Shown: piece by piece, positions 1 through 14,397 of the stretch
Layout: the number at the start of each line of letters is the position of its first letter
Position numbering within the stretch: position 1 is the stretch's first letter
Source of the DNA: Candidatus Abyssobacteria bacterium SURF_5
GTDB taxonomy: Bacteria; Abyssobacteria; SURF-5
NCBI GenBank assembly: GCA_003598085.1
Contig: QZKU01000126.1
Span: 1-14,397, forward strand
Length of the DNA stretch: 14,397 bases
Direction of reading: 5' to 3'
Position numbers and translations under genes: made by a program
The notes under the pieces: generated by a model
Seen by the model: only the letters and a program-made list of their open reading frames with translations
Told to the model about the DNA's origin: nothing
The model's database searches: none

Positions 1-1
1 C

Positions 2-121
2 ATCTTCATCGCGCCGATCATGAAGCTCTCGCTTTCATTCGATCATCGGGCCGTCGACGGCGCCCCCGCCGCACGATTCCTGCAGATACTAAAAAGAAAT
101 TTAGAGGAGTTGAACTTCTGA
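2..121 (+). CDS. 2-oxo acid dehydrogenase E2 (lipoyl acyltransferase), C-terminal fragment
   Basis: Only the last 39 codons lie in the window; the gene begins upstream. The fragment contains the sequence DHRAVDGAPAARFL, which carries the HxxxDG catalytic signature of the dihydrolipoamide acyltransferase (CAT-like) domain: the histidine acts in acyl transfer from lipoyl-lysine to CoA. The reading frame ends with TGA right after a charged helix, as in normal E2 C-termini, so this end looks intact. Whether the complex uses pyruvate, 2-oxoglutarate or branched-chain oxo acids cannot be told from this piece. The family call is firm from the motif; the substrate is unknown. Confidence 0.9.
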   Translation: MFIAPIMKLSLSFDHRAVDGAPAARFLQILKRNLEELNF

Positions 122-219
122 TGGCGAAGCGTATTCCTTTCGGTGCAGGAATGCGTACGAGCGAGTTGAATTCATTCTCAAAGATTTCTTTCAGTTCCCA
201 TTATCCTTACGATCGATAA
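121..219 (+). CDS. possible 32-residue ORF coupled to the E2 stop codon
   Basis: An ATG overlaps the E2 stop codon (TGATG arrangement) and opens a 32-codon frame beginning MAKRIPFGAG and ending in TAA. An AGAGGAG purine stretch at 103-109 lies 11 bases before the ATG, so coupled translation is possible. I recognise no family. Its first part overlaps a 9-bp hairpin, and it may simply be spacer or the stump of a lost downstream gene. Low confidence. Confidence 0.15.
   Translation: MAKRIPFGAGMRTSELNSFSKISFSSHYPYDR
129..156 (+). terminator. hairpin after the E2 gene, possible transcript end
   Basis: Bases 129-137 (GCGTATTCC) pair with 148-156 (GGAATGCGT) around a 10-base loop, nine pairs with two G-T wobbles. 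It starts eight bases after the E2 stop, a usual place for a 3' hairpin, but no T-run follows. It is therefore not a classic intrinsic terminator; it could be a stabilising 3' hairpin or precede Rho-dependent termination. Confidence 0.3.
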
Positions 220-242
220 ATTCTCTTTTCAGCATTTCACTG

Positions 243-251
243 TGATATAAT
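243..251 (+). promoter_or_regulatory. extended -10 promoter upstream of the oxidoreductase operon
   Basis: TGATATAAT is a perfect TATAAT -10 hexamer (246-251) preceded by the TGn extension. No good -35 hexamer is seen at 16-18 bases, which fits extended -10 promoters. It lies about 77 bases before the ATG at 328 and is the best candidate start for transcription of the oxidoreductase, sulfur carrier and kinase genes. Confidence 0.5.
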
Positions 252-327
252 CAGACGCATCGCGACATCTCGGCCAGATGGAGAGCGTCGCACACTAATA
301 AATGAGGTGATCGAAAGGAGTAAACCT

Positions 328-2325
328 ATGCCTTTTGGATATATGGGAAAAGTGTTATGGGTCGATCTTGGCTCAGGAAAACTATGGGACGAGCACATTG
401 ACGAGCGAATATATCAGGACTTCCTTTGCGGATACGGGCTTGGCGCTCAAGTGATTTTTGAGCGACAGCCTGGCAAAGTGGATCCCCTGGGGCCGGAGGC
501 TATTATTGGATTCGCGACCGGCCTGTTAACGGGAACGGGCGCCCCATTCACCGGCAGATATATGGTCGTTGGCAAGTCCCCCCTTACCGGTACATGGGGC
601 GACGCGAATTCCGGAGGTCATTTTTCTCCGATGTTGAAGCGAACCGGATACGATGCCGTATTCGTAAAAGGAGTCTCGGAAAAACCCGTCCTCCTCGTGA
701 TCAATGACGGCAAATCGGAACTAATAGATGCATCTTTTGTTTGGGGGAAGGATTGCGTCGAGACCGAGGACCTGATCCGGAGCCGTTTAGGAAATGACAA
801 GTATCAGATAGCCTGTATCGGACCCGCCGGCGAGAAGCTTTCCCTCATATCAGGAGTAATAACCGATAAGGGCAGAGCAGCAGGACGCTCGGGGCTGGGC
901 GCTGTCATGGGGTCCAAAAAACTAAAGGCCATCGCCGTTCTCGGCGAGAGGAAAACTGAAATCGCAGAGGAGCAGCTTTTTTCGAAGATCAGATCGGCCT
1001 ATCTGCAGAAGTTCAAGAGGAAAGCGCCCTTCAAAGATAAGACGTCCGTCGACAACATCAGGTTTATGGGGAAAATGGTGCGCAGTTTCTTCCCCTTCCT
1101 TTTTGCCACGCCGCCGGCCACCTACAAGGAGCTTATCATGCGTTATGGGACAGCCGGCATGACCGCCTATTCCGCCGAGGCCGGCGATTCGCCAATAAAA
1201 AATTGGGGCGGAAGCGGCTATCACGACTTTCCTATCGCCTCCAAATCCTACCGGATAAGCGATAAGGAACTCCTTCGATATCAGGAGAAAAAATATCACT
1301 GCGCCTACTGCCCGCTCGGATGCGGCGGCATCGTGAATCTTTCAGGCGGCAAGTATCACGTGGAGCGGGGACATAAGCCGGAATACGAGACACTGGCTGC
1401 CTTCGGTTCAATGTGCCTGAACGACGACCTCGAAGCGATCCTGTACGCAAATGAGATTTGTAACCGGGCCGGACTGGATACTATCTCGACCGGAGCGGCG
1501 ATCGCTTTCGCTATTGAATGTTTCGAGAATGGAATCATTTCGGAGCGGGACACCGGCGGGATCCGACTTGGATGGGGCAATTCGGCCGCGATCATAGAGT
1601 TGACCGAACAGGTGGCCACGCGAACCGGCTTTGGCGATATATTGGCGGATGGCGTCAAGCGTGCCGCCGAGAGGATCGGAAAAGGTTCAGAGAAATTTGC
1701 AATCCATGCCGGAGGGCAGGAGCTTCCAATGCACGACCCCCGGTTTGATCCCACTTTTGGCACTGCATATCAGGTCGAGCCCACGCCCGGGCGCCATACC
1801 ATCTCATCGGATACCTATGTAATGCTTATGGAACTCCATAAAACATTTAAAGAAGTCATACCGGTGAAACAGGTCACCTTGAAATCCTCAAAATATTCCT
1901 ATGATAAGATCGGCGAGCACCAGGTGCTGAATAGTATCTATGTGCAAGTTGCGAATGGAGCAGGCGCGTGCATCTTCGGTCTGATGGTAGGAGAATACCC
2001 TCTATTCGAGTGGATAAATGCGGCAACCGGCTGGAAGCTAGCTACGCAAGATTTTGTCACAGTTGGAGAAAGGATACTGACCTTAAGGCATTGCTTTAAT
2101 GTCCGGGAAGGTATTCGGCCAGCCGATACACGGCTGAAAAACAGGGCCGTTGGAGAGCCTCCTCTTCAAAAAGGACCACTTTCAGGGGTGACTATAGACG
2201 AGCAAACGCTTGGCCGCCGCTATTATGAGAAGCTTGAATGGGATTATGAGACGGGTCTCCCCAGGCGGGAACGGCTCGAAAAACTTGGGTTGGATGGCGT
2301 GGCGCGGCTATTGTATAACAGATAG
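328..2325 (+). CDS. aldehyde:ferredoxin oxidoreductase (AOR) family protein
   Basis: This 665-residue protein matches the AOR family over its whole length. The N-terminal domain has the typical GYMGKVLWVDL opening and the stretch TGRYMVVGKSPLTG followed by SGGHFSPMLKRTGYDAV, the part that holds the bis-pterin cofactor. Domain 2 has C325-x2-C328-x3-C332, three ligands of the [4Fe-4S] cluster; Cys548 in GAGACIFG is the likely fourth ligand. Known members oxidise aldehydes to carboxylic acids with ferredoxin, or run the reverse reaction; the family also includes BamB-type and WOR-type enzymes, so the substrate is open. The ATG at 328 is chosen because AAAGGAG at 314-320 lies seven bases upstream; a GTG at 307 would add seven residues and would swallow that ribosome site. 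No signal peptide, so it is cytoplasmic. A MoaD-like gene follows 30 bases later. Confidence 0.93.
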   Translation: MPFGYMGKVLWVDLGSGKLWDEHIDERIYQDFLCGYGLGAQVIFERQPGKVDPLGPEAIIGFATGLLTGTGAPFTGRYMVVGKSPLTGTWGDANSGGHFSPMLKRTGYDAVFVKGVSEKPVLLVINDGKSELIDASFVWGKDCVETEDLIRSRLGNDKYQIACIGPAGEKLSLISGVITDKGRAAGRSGLGAVMGSKKLKAIAVLGERKTEIAEEQLFSKIRSAYLQKFKRKAPFKDKTSVDNIRFMGKMVRSFFPFLFATPPATYKELIMRYGTAGMTAYSAEAGDSPIKNWGGSGYHDFPIASKSYRISDKELLRYQEKKYHCAYCPLGCGGIVNLSGGKYHVERGHKPEYETLAAFGSMCLNDDLEAILYANEICNRAGLDTISTGAAIAFAIECFENGIISERDTGGIRLGWGNSAAIIELTEQVATRTGFGDILADGVKRAAERIGKGSEKFAIHAGGQELPMHDPRFDPTFGTAYQVEPTPGRHTISSDTYVMLMELHKTFKEVIPVKQVTLKSSKYSYDKIGEHQVLNSIYVQVANGAGACIFGLMVGEYPLFEWINAATGWKLATQDFVTVGERILTLRHCFNVREGIRPADTRLKNRAVGEPPLQKGPLSGVTIDEQTLGRRYYEKLEWDYETGLPRRERLEKLGLDGVARLLYNR

Positions 2326-2355
2326 GTTTTTCCTCACGCTCGAAGGGACGAGTTA

Positions 2356-2628
2356 ATGGTCAAGATACGCGTGGCAGGCATATTCTCAGGACTGCCTATG
2401 AACGAGCTATTGGAAGAGCGCTATCAGGCCGGAGACACACCTGCCGCCCTCCTCGGGCGACTCGATAAACGGAAAGCTGTTCAGAGGCGCTTTTTCAGCA
2501 AGGTGGTCAAGAGCGGCAACGGAATCTTTCTTCTGAACGGGAACCGGCTTGAACTTAACGATTTGAAGCAAAAGCAGCTTGCTGATGGCGATGAGATATC
2601 CGTGCTTTCTGCTATTGCGGGTGGTTGA
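2356..2628 (+). CDS. MoaD/ThiS-family sulfur carrier protein
   Basis: This 90-residue protein ends in Gly89-Gly90, the tail that MoaD/ThiS ubiquitin-like carriers need for adenylation and thiocarboxylate formation. The final third (NGNRLELNDLKQKQLADGDEI and SVLSAIAGG) has the usual beta-grasp pattern, with a DGDEI turn followed by a hydrophobic strand and the GG tail. MoaD-like carriers donate the dithiolene sulfurs of molybdopterin. Placed directly behind an AOR gene it probably serves the tungsto- or molybdopterin of that enzyme; this role is inferred from position. It could instead be a ThiS-like carrier for another pathway. No MoaE-like partner is in the window. The gene is slightly longer than the usual 75-85 residues and sits between the AOR and kinase genes in the same transcription unit. 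Confidence 0.85.
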   Translation: MVKIRVAGIFSGLPMNELLEERYQAGDTPAALLGRLDKRKAVQRRFFSKVVKSGNGIFLLNGNRLELNDLKQKQLADGDEISVLSAIAGG

Positions 2629-2648
2629 CTTTTTCCAGGGCAAGCTCC

Positions 2649-4481
2649 ATGGACACTGTCATTCCTAAGCTGGTTGTTGTAAAAGGCTTATCTGCACAAA
2701 CCTACTGTATTACTTCAGATTCCATCTCATTGGGTCGGGCATTATCAAATGATTTTGTCATATCAGCGGAGGGTGTATCACGGATTCATGCCCGGATTTT
2801 CAAGGTGGGAAGCGGATACCATATCGAGGATATGGGGAGTACCAATGGCACGTTCATTGGCGAGCAGCAGATAAAAAAGGAAACGGAGCTGCGGGATGGA
2901 GATGTAATCGGACTCGGCCGTTCCGTTGCCCTGAGCTTTGTTTTCCCGCTCAAACCGGAGAAGGAAGCGGCACAGATCCTGGATCTCTCAGATGAAGCAG
3001 AGCCGGTGATCAGGTCTGCCATCGATTCTGGCGAGCGCGAACCGAGCCCGCGGCTTATCAGCACGATTGAGATACCGTCGGATATCCAATTCTTGCGCCG
3101 GACCTACCAGCGGTTGGCACTTCTGTACCAGGTGAACAATTCGGTAGGCTCGATGACCGATTTGGATCAATTATTTGAACGCATAGCCGTCATTGTGGTG
3201 AATCTGAAGAAAGCAGACAGAGTTGCCATCTTACTGCAGGACGAGCAAAAAGAGTTGGTTCCGGCGGTGGTCAAGGAAAAGGCCGAAGGTGCTGTGCATC
3301 ACCCGATGCACGTCAATCGAGCGATCGTACAGAAAGTTATCGGGGAGGGTATCGGAATCCTCAGCGACGATGGGAATGATCCCCGTGGTGCTGAGGGTCA
3401 TTCCGGCAGGGGCGTCATCGGCAGCGTCATATGCGGGCCGCTCAAGCGTAAGGAAAAAATCATCGGCGCAATCTACGTGGCCTGTTTGAATCAGAATGAA
3501 GAGTTTGATGAAGAAGACTTGAAGCTGCTGATTGCCGTGTGCAATGAAGCGTCGATCGTCATCGACAACGCGTATTCGTATCGGGAGATTGAGGAATTGA
3601 ACAAGGGGCTCGAGGAGAAAGTGCGACAACGCACAGCGGACCTTGAGCGCGCGCTGGAGAATCTGAAAGATGCCCAGTTGCAGCTCGTTCAATCTGAACG
3701 GGCATCCGCCGTAGCTCAATTGCTCTCCGGCATCGCCCACGAAATAAACAACCCCGTAAACTACATCATGAACGGCATTGACTCGCTCAGCCGCTATGTC
3801 CGAGAGCTTCGTTGGATGAACGAAAGCTACTGTCAGGCGGCGCGGCAGGCCGGTCTCGACTTGAGCGAGATCGAAGCGGAGGCGGATAGATTAAATTTCT
3901 CTGAACATATGTCTATGCTAAGCGACCTGCTGTTGGCCATTCATGACGGTGCCAGGCGAACCGCTGAGATCGTTCAGTCGCTTCGCGGTTTCTCGCGTAC
4001 CGGTGAATCTGAGATCAAGGAAATCGATCTGAATCAGACAATCGACGAATCTTTGCGGTTGCTGTCGTATCGATTGAAGGAGGGGGTGACGGTAGAAATT
4101 GAGAAAGGCGATATTCCCCTTCATTCCTGCTACGCGTCGCAGATGGGCCAGGTGTTCCTCAACCTGCTCGATAACGCCGAGCAGGCAATCGGTCAGGACG
4201 GACGAATTCTCATCAAGACGTGGTGCGATCCATCATGGGTTTTCATTAGCATATCGGATTCGGGAAAAGGAATCGCACCTGAAATCATCCCGAAGATCTT
4301 CGATCCCTTCTTCACAACGAAGACTGAAAATGGGGGCATTGGTCTTGGCCTTTCGATCAGTATGGCCATTGTAAAGCGCCATGGAGGAGATATCAGAGTG
4401 CAGAGCGAACCAGGATCTGGAACGACTTTTACGATATCGCTTCCCCGAGAAGCAAAACCGGGTGCAGCCGAGCGGGGCTGA
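2649..4481 (+). CDS. soluble FHA-GAF sensor histidine kinase
   Basis: A 610-residue protein with no membrane segment or signal peptide. Residues ~10-95 form an FHA domain with the conserved Gly29-Arg30, Ser44-Arg45-x-His47 and Asn66-Gly67 that read phosphothreonine. Residues ~169-308 look like a GAF domain (FERIAVIVVNLKKADRVAIL through IIGAIYVA). A charged coiled coil (~310-350) leads into the dimerisation/phosphoacceptor helix with HEINNP (His364), then the ATPase domain: N box FLNLLDNAEQA (~505-509), DSGKGI (from Asp537), FDPFFTTK and GIGLGLS. It should autophosphorylate in the cytoplasm and pass phosphate to a receiver domain. The ATG at 2649 is preferred, with AGGG eight bases upstream; a TTG at 2625 overlapping the moaD-like stop would add eight residues. 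The next kinase gene starts four bases after its stop. The ligand of the GAF domain is unknown. Confidence 0.9.
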   Translation: MDTVIPKLVVVKGLSAQTYCITSDSISLGRALSNDFVISAEGVSRIHARIFKVGSGYHIEDMGSTNGTFIGEQQIKKETELRDGDVIGLGRSVALSFVFPLKPEKEAAQILDLSDEAEPVIRSAIDSGEREPSPRLISTIEIPSDIQFLRRTYQRLALLYQVNNSVGSMTDLDQLFERIAVIVVNLKKADRVAILLQDEQKELVPAVVKEKAEGAVHHPMHVNRAIVQKVIGEGIGILSDDGNDPRGAEGHSGRGVIGSVICGPLKRKEKIIGAIYVACLNQNEEFDEEDLKLLIAVCNEASIVIDNAYSYREIEELNKGLEEKVRQRTADLERALENLKDAQLQLVQSERASAVAQLLSGIAHEINNPVNYIMNGIDSLSRYVRELRWMNESYCQAARQAGLDLSEIEAEADRLNFSEHMSMLSDLLLAIHDGARRTAEIVQSLRGFSRTGESEIKEIDLNQTIDESLRLLSYRLKEGVTVEIEKGDIPLHSCYASQMGQVFLNLLDNAEQAIGQDGRILIKTWCDPSWVFISISDSGKGIAPEIIPKIFDPFFTTKTENGGIGLGLSISMAIVKRHGGDIRVQSEPGSGTTFTISLPREAKPGAAERG

Positions 4482-4485
4482 CATT

Positions 4486-5574
4486 ATGCAAAGGGAACCT
4501 ATTCTCTACGTTGATGACGACCACAACAATCTTATCGTCTTTAGGACTGCTTTCCTCGATTATTTCGATGTCTGTGCCTGCTCTTCGGCTGAAGAAGCCC
4601 TCTCCCTTTGCGAGCGGCGCGAATTCCCTGTCATTATCGCCGATCAGCGAATGCCCGGAATGAAGGGGACTGATTTTCTGGAAATCGTCAAGGAGAAGTA
4701 CCCGCTGACGATTCGAATGATACTCACAGCGTACACCGATGTGGTAGACGTTCTTGATGCCATTAATAAAGGCAGCGTGTACAAGTACCTGACAAAGCCG
4801 TGGCGAACTGAGGACTTGCTCATGACGCTGCACCGGGCGCTCGAGGCGTACCATCTGTCACAGGAGAACCGCCGCTTAACCGATCAATTGATCGAGGCGG
4901 CCAAATTGTCGGTGCTTGGTCAATTTTCTGCGGGAATCGCACATGAGATAAGGAACGAACTGAGTTTGATCACATTGGCTGAACTCATTCGAGAGAAGTA
5001 CCCGAAAGACGAGATGCTCCAGCGCTATTCTGCAATTCTGCTCGAAGCCCGCGACCATCTGCTGGAAATTGTGAACGAGGTCACGAATGTGGCGCGTGGA
5101 GTGGAGCCTTCATGCGAGAAAAAGCCGGTTCCGCTGGCTGAGATTATTCAAAACGCGCTTTCCCTTGTCAGGTACGACAGGAATTTCGACGGCAAAACCC
5201 TGGTTGAGAAGGTTTCGCAAAATCCTGTCATCTCAGGCGACAAGGGCAAGTTGCGCCAGGTATTTATCAATGTCCTGCAGAATGCCGCTCATGCAACCGA
5301 TTCTTGCAACCAGGGCGTCATTACAATCGAAACCCTCGAAGAACCTGGCTTCGGCGTGGTGGCAATTAGCGACAACGGGTGCGGGATCGCACCGGAGAAC
5401 ATGGCCCGCATTTGGGAACCATTCTTTACCACCAAACAGGAGCATGGAACCGGGCTGGGCCTGGATATCTGCCAAAAGATTCTCCATGCGCACAATGGAC
5501 GTATTGAGTGCACCGATTCCAGTCCGGACGGGACAACCTTTAAGGTCTGGCTGCCGCTGCACCGCCAAGATTGA
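4486..5574 (+). CDS. hybrid kinase with N-terminal receiver domain (REC-HisKA-HATPase)
   Basis: This 362-residue soluble protein starts with a receiver domain (~4-120): acidic DDD near the N-terminus, phosphoacceptor Asp53 in IIADQRMPGM, and Lys104 in YLTKPW. The DQRMPG form is common in receivers of RpfG/HupR-like proteins. A kinase core follows: SAGIAHEIRNELS with His153, N box QVFINVLQNAAHA, DNGCGI, EPFFTTK and GTGLGLDI. In the H box, Glu158 stands where most HisKA domains have proline (HEIRNP). The ATG at 4486 is four bases after the stop of the FHA-GAF kinase, so the two are surely co-transcribed and perhaps translationally coupled. The likely role is to take phosphate from the FHA-GAF kinase and alter its own kinase or phosphatase activity (inference). 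There is no DNA-binding domain. Confidence 0.9.
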   Translation: MQREPILYVDDDHNNLIVFRTAFLDYFDVCACSSAEEALSLCERREFPVIIADQRMPGMKGTDFLEIVKEKYPLTIRMILTAYTDVVDVLDAINKGSVYKYLTKPWRTEDLLMTLHRALEAYHLSQENRRLTDQLIEAAKLSVLGQFSAGIAHEIRNELSLITLAELIREKYPKDEMLQRYSAILLEARDHLLEIVNEVTNVARGVEPSCEKKPVPLAEIIQNALSLVRYDRNFDGKTLVEKVSQNPVISGDKGKLRQVFINVLQNAAHATDSCNQGVITIETLEEPGFGVVAISDNGCGIAPENMARIWEPFFTTKQEHGTGLGLDICQKILHAHNGRIECTDSSPDGTTFKVWLPLHRQD

Positions 5575-5647
5575 CCGGGTACTGATTTCTGATCAAAAGG
5601 AAAAAGGGCCAGTCGCTTAAGATGCGGTTCCACATTGCAGGAAACAG

Positions 5648-5656
5648 TGGTATAAT
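5648..5656 (+). promoter_or_regulatory. extended -10 promoter for the single-domain response regulator
   Basis: TGGTATAAT has a perfect TATAAT (5651-5656) preceded by TGn. No convincing -35 hexamer lies at the usual spacing. It sits 59 bases before the ATG at 5715, in the 140-base gap after the REC-kinase gene, and suggests that the next gene can be expressed separately. Confidence 0.55.
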
Positions 5657-5714
5657 TGAACTGGGTTAATCAAAACGCGCAGTTGTTTCGCATATTCAGG
5701 AAGGGGGGCTCGAA

Positions 5715-6104
5715 ATGAATAACAGGCAATCAATCCTCCTCGTTGACGATGACCAGGAATTCCGGAAGGCAATGAAAAAGATGTTCGAAAAGTCCGGCTA
5801 TGATGTGACTGTCGCCGCCGACGGGCAGGAGGCGCTGGTTGCCCTATCGGGAAAATCCTTCGACCTGATCATATCGGACTTGCGAATGCCTAATCTGAAC
5901 GGCATGGAACTGATGGAAGAATTGAAACGGCGCAAGATAAACCTGCCGGTCATCTTTATCACGGCCTATGGTGAAGTTGAATCGTACATGGACCTTATGA
6001 ATTTGGGAGCTTTCGAATATATTAATAAGCCGGTAAAGGGACATGAGATCCTGGGGGTCGTGCGAAAGGCGCTGGAATCCGCAAGTCCATCCGATAGGAT
6101 TTAA
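5715..6104 (+). CDS. single-domain response regulator (CheY-like)
   Basis: The 129-residue protein is only a receiver domain: acidic Asp11-Asp12-Asp13, phosphoacceptor Asp55 in ISDLRMPNLNG, switch Thr83 (FITAYG), Tyr102 and Lys105 in the YINKP motif. There is no output domain, so it acts by protein contact or as a phosphate shuttle or sink. The ATG is supported by an AAGGGGGG ribosome site seven bases upstream. It lies between a soluble kinase pair and a membrane kinase/NtrC pair; which kinase phosphorylates it cannot be told from sequence. A 184-base spacer without a convincing terminator follows. Confidence 0.92.
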   Translation: MNNRQSILLVDDDQEFRKAMKKMFEKSGYDVTVAADGQEALVALSGKSFDLIISDLRMPNLNGMELMEELKRRKINLPVIFITAYGEVESYMDLMNLGAFEYINKPVKGHEILGVVRKALESASPSDRI

Positions 6105-6227
6105 ACGTCGGAGACTTTTCCTCCATCCACATTGCAAGTCGTCCTGGCCAAGTGTCTTCCAGACAAACAGCGGGTCCCGCCGCCCCAAGATTTCTCTGGA
6201 TTGCCGCTGTTACGACCAATCGCCGAA

Positions 6228-6257
6228 TTGACAGAAGCATTGACGAGCACCTATACT
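6228..6257 (+). promoter_or_regulatory. sigma-70-type promoter for the membrane kinase/NtrC pair
   Basis: TTGACA (6228-6233) is a perfect -35 hexamer and TATACT (6252-6257) a near-perfect -10, spaced by 18 bases. The predicted start of transcription is near 6264, giving a short leader of about 25 bases before the ATG at 6289. Confidence 0.65.
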
Positions 6258-6288
6258 GTTACATAGGCACGTGTGCAGAACCAAGAAG

Positions 6289-7701
6289 ATGAAGTGGCAT
6301 AAATCTCTCATATTCAAAATCCTCCTCTGCTGTTTCATTTTGACGTTTTGCCTCGTTGGAAGTATCTTTGGCGTCCTCTACCGTTACCAGCAGAGCATTC
6401 TTTCGGAGATGGATGAGAAAAGCTCCGAAATACTGCGAGGAATTCAGGTCCAACTGACAAACCTGGAGGACGCAAGAACCCCAAGTGAAATCCTGCACAA
6501 CCGTCTTTCCGATTTGAAGTCTCGACATGGAGTCGATGCGATTATTGTATATGATTCGGAAAAACAGGTGGTTTCAAGCACTGATTCGGACCAGATGCCC
6601 GTTCTTGAATTTGGGATTCCGGAGCGCGCACAAGTGGTTGTGGTAGAACCAACGGAGGGAAGAAAAATAACGGCATATTTTCAAACCTTTCCGTTGATGG
6701 TAGGATCCAATCCTGTAGGGTATGTCCGGATCGCTCTCGCCATCGCTCCGCAAACTCACCTCGTGAAAGCCCTCCAGAGCAAGACCCTCATTACGCTGGT
6801 GCTTCTGTTTGTTGGAACGATAATCGTCCTTTGCTCCTTGATTTTTAAAATTCTCCGGCCGCTCCAGACCATGGCGCGAACCTGCCAGGAAATAAGTGAA
6901 GGTAACCTTCACGAACTCGACATTCGACCGAATGCGAGCGAAGTCCTCGTGCTGGAAATGAAGTTCAACGAGATGGTTGAGGCCCTGAAGGTGAAGGCGA
7001 AAATGGAGCAAAAGCTCGCCCAGACTCAGCGCCTGTGCGCCATCGGGAACCTGGCAGCCGGGATTGCCCATGAAATCGGGAATCCTCTGAATGGTATCAA
7101 GCTTACCGTTTCGCATGTCAAGGACTTGTTTTCCGCGCGCGAACTGAGTGACGAATCTTTTCATAAATACACAGATACGATTATTAAAGAAGTAAACCGG
7201 CTGGATGGGATTGTTCGTGATTTCCTGATGTTTGCAAAAGAGCGAGAGCTTGCGCTGCAGCCTTATCGGATCGACAAACTGCTCCACGAGACCGTCCGCT
7301 TGATCGAGAAAGACGCCTCCAAGAGGGGCATCCGCATCGAAACGGATATTCAGGCGATCAGCCGAGAGGCGCTCATAGACCCGCAACTCCTGAAAAGTGC
7401 TTTACTTAATATCATCATCAACGCGATGGACGCGTCAGACGGCAGCGGAAAAATCAGGCTTGTCTCGACGGATTCCTGCGATACATGCAGGATAGAGGTG
7501 ATCGATCAAGGCGTAGGTATCCCCGCCGAGATACTGAGCCGAATATTCGATCCATATTTTTCCACCAAGTCTTCAGGAACCGGATTGGGGCTCTCGCTGA
7601 CCAAAATGATTATCGAGAAACATGACGGCGATATTTCCATCGAGAGCACCGTGGGAAAAGGGACCAAGGTTATTATCACCCTGCCGATGAAAGGAATGTG
7701 A
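6289..7701 (+). CDS. membrane sensor histidine kinase
   Basis: A 470-residue inner-membrane kinase. Residues ~7-31 form the first membrane helix, ~32-165 a periplasmic sensor domain I cannot name, and ~166-188 the second helix. A HAMP-like linker (~190-240, LRPLQTMARTCQEISEGNL) follows, then GIAHEIGNPLNG with His261 and the ATPase motifs LLNIIINAMDAS, DQGVGIP, FDPYFSTK and GTGLGLSL. The architecture matches AtoS/NtrB-like partners of sigma-54 activators. The ATG at 6289 is chosen because the hydrophobic helix follows it directly; a GTG at 6271 would add six residues, and neither start has a strong ribosome site. The stop codon is one base before the GTG of the NtrC-type gene, so the two form a coupled cognate pair. 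Confidence 0.92.
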   Translation: MKWHKSLIFKILLCCFILTFCLVGSIFGVLYRYQQSILSEMDEKSSEILRGIQVQLTNLEDARTPSEILHNRLSDLKSRHGVDAIIVYDSEKQVVSSTDSDQMPVLEFGIPERAQVVVVEPTEGRKITAYFQTFPLMVGSNPVGYVRIALAIAPQTHLVKALQSKTLITLVLLFVGTIIVLCSLIFKILRPLQTMARTCQEISEGNLHELDIRPNASEVLVLEMKFNEMVEALKVKAKMEQKLAQTQRLCAIGNLAAGIAHEIGNPLNGIKLTVSHVKDLFSARELSDESFHKYTDTIIKEVNRLDGIVRDFLMFAKERELALQPYRIDKLLHETVRLIEKDASKRGIRIETDIQAISREALIDPQLLKSALLNIIINAMDASDGSGKIRLVSTDSCDTCRIEVIDQGVGIPAEILSRIFDPYFSTKSSGTGLGLSLTKMIIEKHDGDISIESTVGKGTKVIITLPMKGM

Positions 7702-7702
7702 C

Positions 7703-9070
7703 GTGCCCGCAAGAATCCTCGTGGTGGACGACGAAGACGCGCAACGCCAGATAATTGCGGATGTCCTCTCTCATGCCCATTATGATGTCGTCCAGGCAAG
7801 CGGCTCATCCGAGGCCGCTGGATGCCTGGAGCGCGAAGAGCTTGACATAGTCATTACTGACCTCAAGATGCAGGACGGTACCGGCCTGGATGTCCTGAGC
7901 GAAGTCAAGCGCACCTCCCCAGAGACCGAAGTCATTGTCATGACGGCGTACGGTTCCATCGAGAGCGCCGTCGAGGCGATGCGGGAAGGCGCCTATGATT
8001 ACATCACAAAACCATTCAATAAGGATGCGCTCCTCGTCTCGGTCAGGAGAGCGCTCGAACATCGAGACTTGCGCGAGGAGAATCTGCAGTTGCGGGAACT
8101 GGTCAAAACCCGGTTCACGACCGGCAATATTGTCGGAGCAGGCAAAAAGATGCAGCGGCTCTTTCGCCTGATGGAGAAATCGATTCCGGTCAACAGCACG
8201 GTGTTGATCCAGGGCGAGAGCGGAACGGGGAAAGAGCTGGTGGCCCGGAGCATCCATTTCGACGGCCCGCGCAAGGATAAGCCCTTTGTCGCGGTTAATT
8301 GCGCAGCCGTACCGGAGAACCTGATTGAGAGCGAACTGTTCGGACACGAGAAGGGCGCTTTTACCGGGGCGGTCCAGACGAAGAAAGGAAAATTCGAGAT
8401 CTCTCACGAGGGCACGATTTTTCTGGACGAAATTGGTGACATGTCTCTGGATCTGCAGGCGAAACTCCTGCGGGTTCTCCAAGAGATGAAGATTGAACGA
8501 GTCGGAGGAACCGATTTGATTCCCATCGATGTCCGCGTGATCGCCGCAACGAATAAGAATCTGGAACAGGAGGTCCAGAAAGGAAATTTCCGGGAAGACC
8601 TCTTCTTCCGCCTCAACGTCATCGTGATTGAAATACCCCCGCTCCGCGAACGACAAGAGGATATCCCTCTGCTCATCGACCACTTCAAAAAGAAACTTTC
8701 CCATGAATTTCAGCGGCCTTATCCGGCCATTGATCCCGCCGTTATTGACCGCTTTATGACATACCACTGGCCGGGCAATGTACGCGAACTTGAAAACACG
8801 CTTGAGCGTCTGCTCGTGCTTACCGACAAGAATAAGGTCGACGTCTCGGATTTGCCGCGTAATCTTGCCTATCCGCAGGTCGTCTGCGCACAGGAGCTTG
8901 ACGGCATCTGTCTGCCCGAGGAGGGTGTCTCAATCGATGACGTGCAGAAAAAGCTGATCTGTGAGGCGCTCAGCAAGACCAACGGGCACATCCTTAAAGC
9001 TTCCAAACTGCTCGGGATGACCTATAAAACGCTCCAGTATCGCATCAAGAAATACGGCATAACCCTCTGA
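7703..9070 (+). CDS. NtrC-family sigma-54-dependent response regulator
   Basis: This 455-residue protein has the full enhancer-binding layout. The receiver (~1-120) has Asp9-Asp10, phosphoacceptor Asp53 and ITKPF; in the loop after Asp53, Gln57 replaces the usual proline (DLKMQDG). The AAA+ domain has Walker A GESGTGKE (171-178), the sigma-54 contact loop GAFTGA (218-223) and Walker B FLDEIGD (Asp242-Glu243). The C-terminal Fis-type helix-turn-helix (~415-455) contains the stretch ILKASKLLGMTYKTLQYRI. Phosphorylation by the kinase encoded just upstream should drive assembly into a ring that opens sigma-54 promoters. The GTG start has AAGGA seven bases upstream. No -24/-12 promoter was found in this window, so its target genes are elsewhere or have a divergent site. 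Confidence 0.95.
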   Translation: MPARILVVDDEDAQRQIIADVLSHAHYDVVQASGSSEAAGCLEREELDIVITDLKMQDGTGLDVLSEVKRTSPETEVIVMTAYGSIESAVEAMREGAYDYITKPFNKDALLVSVRRALEHRDLREENLQLRELVKTRFTTGNIVGAGKKMQRLFRLMEKSIPVNSTVLIQGESGTGKELVARSIHFDGPRKDKPFVAVNCAAVPENLIESELFGHEKGAFTGAVQTKKGKFEISHEGTIFLDEIGDMSLDLQAKLLRVLQEMKIERVGGTDLIPIDVRVIAATNKNLEQEVQKGNFREDLFFRLNVIVIEIPPLRERQEDIPLLIDHFKKKLSHEFQRPYPAIDPAVIDRFMTYHWPGNVRELENTLERLLVLTDKNKVDVSDLPRNLAYPQVVCAQELDGICLPEEGVSIDDVQKKLICEALSKTNGHILKASKLLGMTYKTLQYRIKKYGITL

Positions 9071-9144
9071 TGTGATCCCTTCTGAATCATACTCCGTACT
9101 TGTGCGATTTCGTCTGCAGCACTCCCGTAACACCTGTCCTGCAC

Positions 9145-9173
9145 TTGACTTTTTGCCGTTTTTAGGTTATACA
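9145..9173 (+). promoter_or_regulatory. promoter of tRNA-Asp
   Basis: TTGACT (9145-9150) and TATACA (9168-9173) are separated by 17 bases. The tRNA begins about 20 bases after the -10 element, as expected for a tRNA gene with a short 5' leader. Confidence 0.5.
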
Positions 9174-9193
9174 TGTAGTGTAGTCCCGATGCG

Positions 9194-9267
<74 letters not shown>

Positions 9268-9354
9268 CTTTTTTTCACTAAAATTCCATTTATCCTTCCT
9301 TCTCCCGTGCAACGATTACGTCAGAGAAAAATCTTTGCCGCTCCCTTTCCGCGA

Positions 9355-10929
9355 ATGCGAATTTTAGTCCCTTTTTGCGTGTTACTCTTTCTTCCATGCT
9401 CTGCCGCATTGGGCGTGGAGATCGGCAGCTCGATCTCGCCGCTCTCAATGAAAGATCTGTCGAACGAGACTGTCGAACTTGTTGCGACACCGCAAAACAT
9501 GGTAATCCTGTATCAGTTTGAATATTCGAGTAAGAGCAAAAAGATCCTGGCTGATTTGATCGATGCCGCATCCTCAGTCGGCGGTATCTCTGCATTTGGG
9601 ATCACCCGCCAAATTCCCGCAGAAGACCGGTATTCCTTTGGCGCTTTTTCATCGAGGATCCTTGTCGATGATAAGAACGCGACTGCAGCTCTCGGCATGT
9701 CGCGATCATCACCTGCGGTCGCCATTCTTGGACCCGGTAACCATTTGCTGGCAGTGCTTGACGAACCTGCTTCATCGGTGGAGATGGTGCTTGCTGTTGC
9801 TGATGTTTTTCTTGCGAATGGATTTCCTGACGCAGCCGAAAGATGTTATCGAGTTGTCCCGCCGGAAATTGGAGATGAGACTGCGGTACAGATGTGCCGC
9901 ATGTATTCCGCCATTTTGAGGGGAGATGTGAAAACAGCCCAAGCAGAGATGAAGGAGTGGGATCAGAAAAGCGCTTCGCCTTCGGCGGACCTGCCTGCGG
10001 CAAGAGCGTTTCTCCTGTTTTGCGAGGGGAACACTCGACGTGCGCTGGCCGAATGCCAGAAGGCGCCGGAGAACGGATTCGCACAGTGGGTTAAAGGACT
10101 GGCACTCTCGCGAATGGGAGAATGCGCGGCTGCCTCGGCGGCCTTCCATAATGCCGTGAAAAGTCGGCTTTCGTATCGCTGGCAGAAAGTCGCAGCATTT
10201 GTTTCGGCGGCGCAGGTGTCGGAGGCGGAAGGAAAGCCAGACGCAGCGCTTGCCCTTCACAAGAAGGCGTTCGACCTTGCTCCTTTGAATCCGGTCAACA
10301 CTGCTTGTCTCGTGAATTATTATTGGCAGCAGAATAAAATCCCGGCTGCCTCCGCTTATGCCGGAATTTTACAAGCGACAACTCAGAATGAGCTGGTACG
10401 CTCCTTCATTTCGGAATTTGAAAAGGAGGTTATCTTTATCGGCTCCACGGCTGCCCGCGAAGCCGTTTTCAAAAAAATCAAAAAGAATGAGCCTGCCGGA
10501 GCGAAGCCGGCGGGAACCAGAAACATCGTGGTTTCGGACTTTTTCATCCAGGGATGTCCGAGCGATTCCGGTTACCTCGCGTGCGCGGCATCGGCCTATC
10601 TAACACACTGCCTCGAGCGCAGCAAAAAGGTCTCGGCTGTTCGACGCGCCGCAGTGAAGGAAGCGGCCAGAGTAATGGGAATTGCTGAGCGGCGCCCGAT
10701 TGGAACGGAGCCCCTCAGAAAAATTGCGTTGGCGCTGTCAGCCGATCTGCTTGTAGTCGGCGAAATCGGCTCATACGAGGATTTTTATCTGATAAACGTT
10801 CGAGTCGCGAACGTCCACTCGGGAGAGATCGTGGCGATAATCTCCGATCGTTTCCCGACTCTGGAGGGAGTAGCCCCCGCGATCGAACGGGCATCAGATG
10901 AGCTGCTTAAAAAGTTGAAACTGGAATGA
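9355..10929 (+). CDS. secreted thioredoxin-like/TPR/CsgG-like fusion protein
   Basis: From the ATG at 9355 this is 524 residues. Residues 1-20 are a Sec signal peptide (MRILVPFCVLLFLPCSAALG) with a likely signal peptidase I cut after ALG; FLPC is not a good lipobox. Residues ~21-155 resemble a redoxin/thioredoxin fold: a hydrophobic strand, then YSSKSKK (57-63) where redox enzymes have WCxxC, and a SSPAVAIL strand at the cis-proline position. Both catalytic cysteines are thus serines (58 and 61), so it should be redox-inactive. Residues ~155-365 look like TPR-type helical repeats. The end, from TRNIVVSDFF through LSADLLVVGEIG and VANVHSGEIVA, resembles the alpha/beta domain of CsgG/FlgO/TolB-N-like envelope proteins. 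A GTG at 9307 would add 16 basic residues; neither start has a clear ribosome site. The function is unknown; a periplasmic scaffold or envelope-complex role is inferred. Confidence 0.75.
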   Translation: MRILVPFCVLLFLPCSAALGVEIGSSISPLSMKDLSNETVELVATPQNMVILYQFEYSSKSKKILADLIDAASSVGGISAFGITRQIPAEDRYSFGAFSSRILVDDKNATAALGMSRSSPAVAILGPGNHLLAVLDEPASSVEMVLAVADVFLANGFPDAAERCYRVVPPEIGDETAVQMCRMYSAILRGDVKTAQAEMKEWDQKSASPSADLPAARAFLLFCEGNTRRALAECQKAPENGFAQWVKGLALSRMGECAAASAAFHNAVKSRLSYRWQKVAAFVSAAQVSEAEGKPDAALALHKKAFDLAPLNPVNTACLVNYYWQQNKIPAASAYAGILQATTQNELVRSFISEFEKEVIFIGSTAAREAVFKKIKKNEPAGAKPAGTRNIVVSDFFIQGCPSDSGYLACAASAYLTHCLERSKKVSAVRRAAVKEAARVMGIAERRPIGTEPLRKIALALSADLLVVGEIGSYEDFYLINVRVANVHSGEIVAIISDRFPTLEGVAPAIERASDELLKKLKLE

Positions 10930-10941
10930 TTCGTTCGCGTC

Positions 10942-11814
10942 TCACTTGCTGAGAACTTCCGCTACAGTACGGCCGATAACTGCAGGACTCTCACAAACGG
11001 TAATTCCTGCAGCCTTCATGGCCTTCATCTTCTCCGCTGCCGTTCCTTTGCCGCCGGCGATGATGGCGCCTGCATGACCCATTCGCTTGCCGGGAGGCGC
11101 GGTCAGCCCCGCAATGAAACTCACCACCGGTTTCGGAAACTGCGCCGCGACGTATTCAGCCGCCTGCTCCTCGGCTGTCCCTCCGATTTCCCCGATGATG
11201 ACAACGGCATGAGTGCCGGCATCCTCTTTGAACAGTTTCAGAAGATCAACGAACGTGCTTCCGATAACGGGGTCTCCGCCAATGCCGATACAGGTTGATT
11301 GGCCGATGCCGCACCGTGTAAGCTGATCGACTGCTTCATACGTCAGCGTTCCGCTTCGCGAGATCAGACCCACATTTCCCGGCTTATGAATGAATCCGGG
11401 CATGATCCCGACCTTGCATTTGCCAGGGGTAATGACTCCAGGACAGTTGGGCCCGATCAAGCGGGTGGGCCGGTCGGCGAGATATCGTTTCACGCGGACC
11501 ATATCCAGCGTTGGAATGCCTTCCGTGATGCATACAACAAGCGGAATGCGGGCATCGGCCGCTTCCATAATAGCGTCGGCCGCAAAGGGAGGTGGGACGA
11601 AAATGAGCGAAACGTTTGCGGCGGTCTCATGAACTGCAGCCTCAACCGTGTTGAAAACGGGAACGCCGTCGGCGGCCGTTCCGCCTTTTCCCGGCGTTAC
11701 ACCCCCGACTACATTGGTGCCGTATTCGATGCACTGCTTTGTGTGGAACGCGCCTTCGCGGCCTGTGATACCCTGCACGAGCAGTCGCGTCTTCTCATTG
11801 ACCAGGATACTCAT
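10942..11814 (-). CDS. sucD: succinyl-CoA synthetase alpha subunit
   Basis: The 290-residue product has the length and motifs of SucD. It begins [20 protein letters not shown], with the CoA-binding Rossmann segment and GVTPGKGG, then [11 protein letters not shown] and the active-site MGHAGAI motif, whose histidine carries the phosphate between nucleotide and succinate. With SucC it makes succinyl-CoA reversibly from succinate, CoA and ATP or GTP in the citric acid cycle or its reductive branch. The ATG at 11814 is supported by a G-rich ribosome site (GGGGGG at 11819-11824 on the minus strand) and by family length; the frame is open further upstream into sucC but that extension is not SucD-like. 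It starts 10 bases after the sucC stop and ends 12 bases from the convergent TPR-protein gene. Confidence 0.97.
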
Positions 11815-11824
11815 TTCAGCCCCC

Positions 11825-12982
11825 CTATGCGACGGCCGCGACGGCTTTGCGTGCGGCATCCTCAAACGTGTTCGCGACGGTAAAAGCAAGGCCCGATTTT
11901 GCGAGAATTTCTCTGGCTTCCGCGGCATTGGTTCCCTCGAGGCGCACAACGATCGGCACGTTCACCTCGACTTCCCGTAGCGCTTCGACGATACCGTTTG
12001 CCACCCGGTCGCAGCGCACGATGCCTCCGAAAATATTCACGAGAACGGCACGCACGTTCTTCTCGGACGTCAGAATGCGAAACGCGTTGGCCACACGCTG
12101 CGGGTCGGCAGCGCCTCCCACGTCCAGGAAATTAGCCGGCATCTGGCCGTGCAGCTTAATGATATCCATTGTAGCCATCGCAAGGCCGGCACCATTTACC
12201 ATGCAGCCGACCGATCCATCCAGCTTGATGTAGCTCAGATTCGATTTGGACGCCTCCACCTCGAGCGGTTCTTCCTCGTGGATATCCCGCAGCGCTTTCA
12301 GATCCTCATGGCGATATAGCGCGTTGTCGTCCAAATTCACTTTCGCGTCGAGTGCGAATGCGTCGCCGGCATCGGTGACCGCGAGCGGATTAATCTCAAC
12401 CAGCGACAAATCCATCTCGATGAACGCACGATACAGGTTCGAGATCATGCGCCCGATCTTTCCGCTGAGTTCCTTGTCGAGATGAAGCCCGTACTGCAGC
12501 TTTCGAATCTGGAACGCCTGGAGCCCGACCGCGGGATCAACGACGACCTTGATGATTTTTTCCGGCGTCGCTGCGGCCACCTGCTCGATGTCCATGCCTC
12601 CCGCCTCGCTCGCCATTATAATAGGCCGCTCGGAAATGCGGTCGATAACGATGCCCAGATAAAGCTCGCGCGCAACATTGCCGGCCTGCTCGATCAGGAC
12701 GCGACGCACGAGGCGTCCTTCCGGACCAGTCTGATGCGTTATCAGCCGCATCCCGAGAATCGATGCGGCCGCCTTTTCAGCGTCTTCGGGTGATGCGGCT
12801 GTTTTTATGCCGCCGCCTTTGCCGCGACCGCCGGCATGAATCTGCGCTTTAACCACGACGGGGCACTGCAACTCGCTTGCAATCCGCCGCGCCTCGGGCG
12901 GATCATCAGCGACCGAGCCGCGCGGGACGGAAATATTGAACTTGCGGAAAAGCTCCTTTGCCTGGTATTCATGAATTTTCAT
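11825..12982 (-). CDS. sucC: succinyl-CoA synthetase beta subunit
   Basis: This 385-residue protein is a full-length SucC. The N-terminal ATP-grasp part starts [15 protein letters not shown] and includes [17 protein letters not shown], the nucleotide-binding segment. [13 protein letters not shown] lines the metal/nucleotide site. The C-terminal domain has [27 protein letters not shown] and [11 protein letters not shown], followed by VRLEGTNA. The subunit binds the nucleotide and forms the alpha-beta interface. GAGAGGA on the minus strand (12989-12995) is a ribosome site six bases before the ATG. It is first in the sucC-sucD operon, driven by a promoter at 13040-13068 with a leader of about 50 bases. 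No citrate-cycle neighbour is next to it apart from sucD, although an E2 subunit of a 2-oxo acid dehydrogenase lies 12 kb away. Confidence 0.97.
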
Positions 12983-13039
12983 GGCGATCCTCTCGGCTTA
13001 GTGAATGGGGTGCTGGAGACGCCGACTGAAAGCGGCCAT

Positions 13040-13068
13040 AGTTTAACAAAAGCGTTTGTCGCTGTCAA
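13040..13068 (-). promoter_or_regulatory. promoter of sucCD
   Basis: On the minus strand, TTGACA (13068-13063) and TAAACT (13045-13040) are spaced by 17 bases. The -35 is perfect and the -10 keeps the key T, A and final T. The start codon of sucC lies about 57 bases downstream of the -10 element. Confidence 0.65.
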
Positions 13069-13105
13069 AGTGGTCAGCATAAGAACGAAGGTGGATTTCA
13101 CTTGC

Positions 13106-13135
13106 TTGACAAAATGCGCCAAGATTGTGTATTTT
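13106..13135 (+). promoter_or_regulatory. promoter of tRNA-Phe
   Basis: TTGACA (13106-13111) is followed after 18 bases by TATTTT (13130-13135). The tRNA starts 38 bases after the -10 element. Its -35 is only 37 bases from the back-to-back sucCD -35. Confidence 0.6.
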
Positions 13136-13173
13136 AGATGCGACACAATCAGCGCATGGTATATGCATATAAC

Positions 13174-13249
<76 letters not shown>

Positions 13250-13297
13250 ATCTTATGTGGTAGTAGTGCACAATTTACAGCTTCTCCTTACTCTTGG

Positions 13298-13511
13298 TCA
13301 TGAAAGGGGAAGCAGGCAAGTGTCGGCTAAGCACCCTCTCCGGCCGAAATCCTGAATATTCTTCAGAGAACCACTGTCGAGAAGACAGATTAATCTGAAC
13401 CAATAGCGCCTATTATTGCACATGTCCTTAATGTCGAATGACTCTTTTTTCCCGGCCGCCCGAAGCAGCTCCTGAAGCAGCGCCTTGCAGGCGCCGGAGA
13501 TTTTTTGTCAT
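13298..13511 (-). pseudogene. possible small gene interrupted at an A6 run
   Basis: On the minus strand an ATG at 13511 has GGGAG eight bases upstream. Its frame gives MTKNLRRLQG and stops after 27 codons. If one base of the A6 run (13506-13501) is skipped, the frame instead continues as MTKISGACKALLQELLRAAG and stays open to a TGA at 13298, about 70 residues with an amphipathic helix followed by KESFDIKDMCNNRRYWF. No family is recognised. The lack of a start codon in the long frame, together with a good start just before a homopolymer, suggests a frameshift by mutation, sequencing error or slippage. It could also be a chance open frame, because the same bases form a terminator-like hairpin on the other strand. 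Confidence 0.3.
13469..13506 (+). terminator. possible intrinsic terminator
   Basis: GCGCC (13480-13484) pairs with GGCGC (13490-13494) around a TTGCA loop; an outer CTCC (13469-13472) can pair with GGAG (13496-13499) across an uneven internal loop; six T follow at 13501-13506. It could end the tRNA-Phe transcript about 250 bases downstream of the tRNA, which is long for such a unit. The inner stem is only 5 bp and separated from the T-run unless the outer pairs form. Confidence 0.4.
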
Positions 13512-13529
13512 ATTGTTTACTCCCAAAAA

Positions 13530-13558
13530 TTGACTCAAGCGGTTAAGAATAATATCAT
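13530..13558 (+). promoter_or_regulatory. promoter of the methyltransferase gene
   Basis: TTGACT (13530-13535) and TATCAT (13553-13558), each one base from consensus, are spaced by 17 bases in an AT-rich stretch. The predicted start of transcription is near 13565, about 27 bases before the TTG at 13592. Confidence 0.55.
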
Positions 13559-13577
13559 TTTGACCTATCATTTTGAA
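13549..13577 (-). promoter_or_regulatory. weak opposing promoter facing the possible small gene
   Basis: On the minus strand TTCAAA (13577-13572) and TATTAT (13554-13549) are 17 bases apart, and TGA before the -10 gives an extended -10. It would feed the possible small gene whose ATG is at 13511. It overlaps the plus-strand promoter in an AT-rich region, so chance is a real alternative. Confidence 0.25.
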
Positions 13578-13591
13578 AGGATCCACAGAAA

Positions 13592-14341
13592 TTGCCCCTT
13601 CATCTGAGAAAAGCTGAAAAGATGGATCTGGCTCTGGCTGCAGCTGTTTCGTTTGTTCCGCTTCTTATTGGTTTTCTCGGCTGGCGGTTGCTTGGGCCAC
13701 TCGTTATTCCCGTTGCCATCAGCGCCGCAGCCTTTTTTATCACCCTGGCGCAACTCGAAATATCGGAACGACGCAGGGAAGATTACCGGCAAATCGAAGC
13801 TCTCTTCTCCCTTTTCTCAGTCGTAAAGCCATCCCGACCGCTGCCACCGATGCGAGATTGGGTGATCTCGCCTGATCTAGCAAGCATCATAGTTCGGGAA
13901 GTCTTAGATCGGAAGTCCTCGGTGATCCTGGAATGCGGGAGCGGATTGTCGACGCTTCTCATGTCGTATTGCGTAATCAGCAACGGGAAAGGGCACATCT
14001 GGTCATTGGAACACGATGCAAAATATGCAAGGCTGGCGGAAAAACTTATCGATTCGCATGGTATGAAGCAAACAAGCACTGTGATACATGCTCCACTCAA
14101 GGAGGTCTTCCTTAGAGGAAGATCATGGCTGTGGTATGACTCATCAATTCTCAAGGACATCGGGCCCATCGACATTGCGGTCATCGATGGTCCCCCAAAA
14201 AGAGTTCAGAGAAACGCCAGATATCCGGCGTTGCCTCTCATATACCGATACTTGAGCGAGGATGCAATCGTCATTCTTGATGATGCTTCTAGAAAGGAGG
14301 GTCCTCATGAGAATTTGTGGGTGAGAAAAAGTCATAAATAA
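13592..14341 (+). CDS. membrane-anchored SAM-dependent methyltransferase-like protein, frame broken at the 3' end
   Basis: Two hydrophobic segments (~13-34 and ~36-55) make an N-terminal membrane hairpin, followed by a basic stretch (SERRRED) and a class I methyltransferase fold. Motif I is VILECGSGLSTLL (Glu114-x-Gly116-x-Gly118), then WSLEHD with the acidic ribose-binding residue, DIAVIDGPP (Asp199) and AIVILDDASR. The fold resembles Methyltransf_24-type proteins; the substrate is unknown. The TTG at 13592 has AAAGGA ten bases upstream; the first ATG is at 13622 with a weaker site. The frame stops with TAA at 14339 after WVRKSHK, soon after the DDASR strand, where the family usually has another helix and strand. 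A different frame is open from 14338 to the window end and reads EKHELNPVYRVSEEDTRK, so a one-base indel near 14338 probably hides the real C-terminus. Confidence 0.7.
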   Translation: MPLHLRKAEKMDLALAAAVSFVPLLIGFLGWRLLGPLVIPVAISAAAFFITLAQLEISERRREDYRQIEALFSLFSVVKPSRPLPPMRDWVISPDLASIIVREVLDRKSSVILECGSGLSTLLMSYCVISNGKGHIWSLEHDAKYARLAEKLIDSHGMKQTSTVIHAPLKEVFLRGRSWLWYDSSILKDIGPIDIAVIDGPPKRVQRNARYPALPLIYRYLSEDAIVILDDASRKEGPHENLWVRKSHK

Positions 14342-14397
14342 TTGAAAAGCATGAACTAAATCCTGTATATCGAGTGTCTGAAGAGGATACTCGAAAG

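Follow-up and report, generated by a model that had tools for sequence, protein, structure and literature searches.

The gene examined here lies in a 14,397-nucleotide stretch of DNA from Candidatus Abyssobacteria bacterium SURF_5, an organism of the deep subsurface (contig QZKU01000126.1, positions 1 to 14,397; hereafter the window), and it stands alone. It is an intact, open reading frame of 524 codons on the plus strand (9355-10929), located downstream of a tRNA-Asp (9194-9268) and followed by the convergent genes for the alpha and beta subunits of succinyl-CoA ligase (10942-12982, minus strand). The remainder of the window encodes an aldehyde ferredoxin oxidoreductase, directly followed by a small ThiS/MoaD-like protein with a GG end (307-2628), and a run of two-component genes (2625-9070) that includes an FHA-GAF histidine kinase, a response regulator-histidine kinase hybrid, a stand-alone receiver, a HAMP histidine kinase and a sigma-54 activator. 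PADLOC returned no match. An in-frame GTG at 9307 would extend the protein by 16 residues, and a signal peptide begins directly at the ATG at 9355. Counted from this ATG, the 524-residue protein shows the following features:

9355..9414, plus strand: signal peptide, residues 1-20 (MRILVPFCVLLFLPCSAALG), of the Sec/SPase I type without lipobox, predicted from sequence and hydrophobicity
9415..9771, plus strand: AhpC/TSA (TlpA/ResA-type) thioredoxin-like domain, residues 21-139, assigned from the PF00578 match of the ortholog and from profile matches; cysteine count 0
9526..9537, plus strand: S58-S59-K60-S61, where redoxins have their CxxC, from the ungapped alignment to the CPGC of structure 2l5o and a low-confidence model
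9712..9714, plus strand: P120 at the cis-proline position, invariant with the SURF_17 ortholog
9772..10482, plus strand: TPR/alpha-solenoid region, residues 140-376, from Pfam TPR_19, structure models and VIA-align; contains the invariant Cys234 and Cys257
10516..10926, plus strand: alpha/beta domain of the CsgG/FlgO/LpoB superfamily, residues 388-524, from profile and hhalign comparisons; Cys401 invariant with the ortholog

Residues 3-18 of the signal peptide are strongly hydrophobic (mean Kyte-Doolittle value 2.4), the residues A-L-G precede V21, and a hydrophobicity scan revealed no later transmembrane-like stretch in the protein. Neither a lipobox nor any other sign of a lipid anchor was found in the window protein, the sequence FLPC having a Pro ahead of its Cys and this Cys being missing in the ortholog.

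Contig searches with the window protein alone yielded no relative, and searches with an alignment yielded only one, namely an ortholog in SURF_17 (L010:5884-7581, record QZKI01000076.1) which has the same domain order end to end and aligns over its full length with 33% identity (29% in the thioredoxin-like, 31% in the TPR and 38% in the C-terminal part). As the genome-wide average amino-acid identity between SURF_5 and SURF_17 is roughly 65% (PMC6121073), the gene is fast-evolving. The two reading frames are 46/57/32% identical at codon positions 1/2/3, which points to a real coding gene under selection, and the GC3 of the window gene is ordinary. In SURF_17, where the adjacent genes were named from their sequence, it is flanked by alaS-like and rpoD-like genes on one side and on the other by methyltransferase-like genes; the gene neighbours hence differ between the two genomes. 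In neither neighbourhood could we find a flagellar or cell-wall gene, or any gene that would name a partner or a particular machine. No relative was found among viral contigs, and the third genome of the family (G001) lacks an ortholog. A profile was run against two sets of sampled genomes, first 386 and later 384 (about 770 genome slots across the domain, partly overlapping between the sets, with the best candidates per genome scored), and returned single redoxins and CsgG-domain proteins only and no other three-part protein.

A first-pass annotation of this DNA had described the protein as a secreted, redox-dead thioredoxin-like domain joined to TPR-like repeats and a CsgG/FlgO-like domain. 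Profile comparisons bear out each of the three domains as assigned and the sequence in which they follow one another, and the ortholog in the second genome has them in the same sequence. For the N-terminal part, no Pfam redoxin match was reported for the window protein alone. The full-length SURF_17 ortholog, on the other hand, matches AhpC-TSA (PF00578) with 33.8 bits (E 3.6e-8; curated cut-off 26), and homology between the N-terminal domains of the two proteins is seen at E 4.5e-8 (on a scale of 24,000 sequences), so that the thioredoxin assignment of the window protein passes through its ortholog. A two-row profile of both sequences further matched canonical CxxC redoxins from unrelated genomes (E 2e-8; hhalign probability 95.6). 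Taken together, a divergent AhpC/TSA domain of the TlpA/ResA type is supported for the N-terminal part. The two sequences show a signal peptide, a degenerate redoxin, TPRs and a CsgG-superfamily domain, and this order is retained across two genera of 'Ca. Abyssubacteria'.

The redoxin domain of the window protein contains neither a CxxC motif nor a peroxidatic Cys, and there is no cysteine at all within residues 21-139. Which residues occupy the place of the motif depends on the register of the alignment. The profile match to structure 2l5o is ungapped between the strand and the end of the motif and sets S58-S59-K60-S61 of the window protein and S-P-G-A of the ortholog on C-P-G-C; S58 lies just before helix 1, which starts at residue 59, right after the Ser, in the low-confidence models. 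HMMER alignments against other redoxins instead shift the motif by three residues to F-E-Y-S in the window protein and C-D-A-S in SURF_17. From these alignments we favour the former register, in which SxxS would stand for CxxC. Since neither register provides a cysteine, thiol-disulfide exchange by the window domain can be excluded whichever of the two applies. As such, the term redox-dead holds for the window protein, but the SxxS motif is not conserved, as the ortholog has SPGA or, in the alternative register, CDAS, and a loss of redox chemistry throughout the family is therefore likely but not certain. The cis-proline strand was rightly said to be retained, with P120 present in both proteins. 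Among the redoxin domains placed in a tree, that of the window protein has a much longer branch than any other and that of the ortholog almost none, which suggests that the window's side has undergone most of the change.

The TPR region is the part of the protein for which the structure predictions are most informative. The window protein reaches the Pfam cut-off for TPR_19 (PF14559), and both structure models, which were built from the two-sequence alignment of the window protein and its ortholog, show a confident helical solenoid in this region (pLDDT mostly 60-90). The VIA-align fold list is filled by TPR chains with Z scores of about 14-16, whereas helical repeats with a Z score below about 13 may match through their common arrangement alone; this list bears on the TPR part only and not on the end domains. 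Both end domains received low pLDDT values in the two predictions, with less than 50 over most of the length of the N-terminal domain, and only the TPR helices were predicted with confidence, so that the fold of neither end domain is claimed from the models.

The C-terminal domain can be placed within a wide superfamily from profile comparisons. The family profile finds CsgG-domain proteins in other lineages with E values down to 2e-10, and in the converse direction a profile of eight CsgG-type domains, from which the query had been left out, matches the window domain with E about 1e-11 and the ortholog with E about 1e-14. By hhalign, the domain matches the CsgG-domain profile with a probability of 98.9, compared with 0.1-3.4 for the negative controls of redoxin against CsgG, and it has the conserved pattern ADLLxxGEIGxxxxxYxINxRxxxVxSG in common with the CsgG/FlgO/LpoB/TolB-N group. 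Four of the CsgG-domain matches were scanned; all of them lie above the curated CsgG cut-off and three also above that of LpoB, and the domain is joined in them to PEGA, beta-propeller, LPP20 or CHAT-TPR modules. Most of the matched CsgG-domain proteins also appear to be exported, with the domain adjoining binding or beta-propeller modules. For the window protein and its ortholog, however, no match to CsgG (PF03783) was reported at E values up to 10, the scores for FlgO (PF17680) of 12.9 (window protein) and 15.6 bits lie below the cut-off of 22.6, and the score for the LpoB model is likewise below its cut-off. The earlier description as CsgG/FlgO-like is hence appropriate for membership in the wide superfamily, but not for CsgG or FlgO proper; by these comparisons the domain belongs to the wide CsgG/FlgO/LpoB group. 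With 137 residues it leaves little room for pore hairpins, and the low-confidence model shows a single alpha/beta domain. Given the missing CsgG match, the sub-threshold FlgO score, the missing lipid anchor and the little room for hairpins, the suggested role in an envelope pore or flagellar ring is not supported.

Among the closest known systems is CnoX (YbbN) of Escherichia coli, in which a thioredoxin-fold domain without full redox competence is likewise followed by a TPR domain. CnoX carries an SxxC motif, is unable to reduce insulin, uses its TPR domain as a holdase, works through Cys63 outside the motif and acts with the cytoplasmic GroEL/ES (PMC8129009). It differs, however, in that its domain is of the Trx type and cytoplasmic, whereas that of the window protein is of the AhpC/TSA type, free of cysteines and predicted to be exported by its signal peptide, and in that CnoX lacks the CsgG-superfamily domain. 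The window protein would thus resemble CnoX in its working and not in its membership. The statement that no protein with this three-part order has been described stands for the exported three-part version, for which a literature search on the Trx-TPR-CsgG combination found nothing relevant, but has to be narrowed in that redox-poor Trx-TPR fusions are already described with CnoX; what is new is the third domain and the export. With the TlpA/ResA-type redoxins (PF00578), the protein shares export, the family assignment of the ortholog and the cis-Pro, but not CxxC, and it is fused to TPRs and a CsgG-like domain. The CsgG/FlgO/LpoB/TolB-N group has the alpha/beta domain that is found at the C-terminus of the window protein, the latter differing by its scores below the FlgO and LpoB cut-offs, the lack of a CsgG match and the absent lipid anchor. 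In a CHAT-TPR-CsgG-superfamily fusion protein of an unrelated genome (L022), the CsgG-superfamily domain also follows directly upon the TPRs, with a CHAT protease-like domain in front where the window protein has its redoxin.

A further comparison is offered by the third genome of the family, in which two tandem secreted AhpC/TSA-TPR proteins (L053, G001:C83:28001-48000, at 8399-9598 and 9588-10724) carry T-E-[SA]-K in place of CxxC. Like the window protein, these proteins combine a signal peptide, an AhpC/TSA domain without CxxC and TPR repeats, but they have no third domain, and they are located amid multiheme c-type cytochrome and NHL-like genes, a setting for which a literature search on redoxin-TPR proteins found nothing relevant. 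The redoxin tree gives no specific kinship of this pair to the window family. Judged from these sequences, the disappearance of redox cysteines from Trx-TPR proteins recurs in the family lineage.

From our point of view, the protein is best read, tentatively and with somewhat less than an even chance of being right, as an exported envelope scaffold, in which the degenerate redoxin domain and the TPRs would serve for binding of a partner or client, with the C-terminal domain as the dock. Following Sec export, the protein would sit in the periplasm, where the Cys-free redoxin domain, no longer exchanging disulfides, could bind a protein partner or an unfolded client together with the TPR groove, and the C-terminal alpha/beta domain could dock the assembly on an envelope complex or self-associate, as domains of the LpoB, FlgO and TolB-N type do. 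Overall, its working would resemble that of CnoX-type Trx-TPR binding proteins, but in the periplasm and with a domain for docking added. We favour this reading because the same order is found in the SURF_17 ortholog, which lies above the AhpC-TSA cut-off, because the C-terminal domain matches the CsgG set in which the query is not contained and most members of this set look exported, and because the absence of Cys from residues 21-139 goes along with the CnoX precedent and the Trx-TPR pair without CxxC in G001. It is weakened by the third genome lacking an ortholog and by the low confidence of the end-domain models, and since the gene stands alone with neighbours that are not conserved, no particular machine is indicated. 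The low identity to the ortholog could, in addition, also mean weak constraint.

This last point leads to the possibility that the gene is a fast-evolving, lineage-specific one under weak constraint, with a redoxin domain that is decaying and has lost most of its function on the window's side. The very long window branch against almost none for the ortholog, the 33% identity set against the genome average and the third genome without ortholog would all fit such a decay, but the frame is intact across all 524 codons, GC3 is ordinary, conservation at codon positions 1 and 2 clearly exceeds that at position 3, and the TPR and C-terminal parts retain conserved motifs, so that we regard it as quite improbable. 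A similarly small chance is given to the protein activating or helping to assemble a defined envelope machine, either a peptidoglycan synthase in the manner of LpoB or the flagellar outer ring in the manner of FlgO; the thioredoxin-like and TPR parts would then serve as targeting arms. The C-terminal domain does fall inside the CsgG/LpoB/FlgO group and flagella are part of the published description of Ca. Abyssubacteria (PMC6121073), yet the sub-threshold FlgO and LpoB scores, the missing lipid anchor, the lack of flagellar or cell-wall genes nearby and the absence of the gene from the third genome argue against it.

Unlikely, if with a little more in its favour, is a protein that uses thiols outside the motif as CnoX does with Cys63, such that Cys234, Cys257 and Cys401 would take part in a disulfide with a structural or regulatory role or in mixed disulfides with clients, and the SURF_17 motif could be a monothiol C-D-A-S in the alternative register. 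Three cysteines that are invariant between proteins of just 33% identity, the HMMER alignments that set a Cys of the ortholog on the first motif Cys and the CnoX precedent (PMC8129009) speak for it. An invariance between two sequences is weak evidence, however, the thioredoxin-like domain of the window protein has no Cys, and the ungapped 2l5o register gives the ortholog SPGA.

Returning to the exported scaffold, one could speculate further that it is a lineage-specific periplasmic chaperone or adaptor, analogous to CnoX, whose redoxin serves purely as a binding module and whose TPR-tied CsgG-superfamily dock delivers clients to an envelope machine, although we consider this specific form rather doubtful. 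If true, this would be a redoxin fold that lost its chemistry and took on a role in recognition within the envelope. A second, separate case would lie in the multiheme cytochrome cluster of a related genome, and the CnoX principle of Trx-TPR binding would be extended to a protein that is exported and carries a dock. All parts are known and the range so far is two uncultured genomes, which makes the practical weight modest.

In G001, we also looked at lipoprotein-redoxin fusions as possible carriers of the window's third domain, for which the hhalign probabilities of 12 and 0.9 gave no support. These lipoproteins (L053:17027-18100 and L054:14032-15045) lie in cytochrome clusters and consist of an N-terminal alpha/beta domain, with a weak likeness to DUF4136/GNA1162 and not clearly CsgG-like, fused to a redoxin domain of the active CxxC type.
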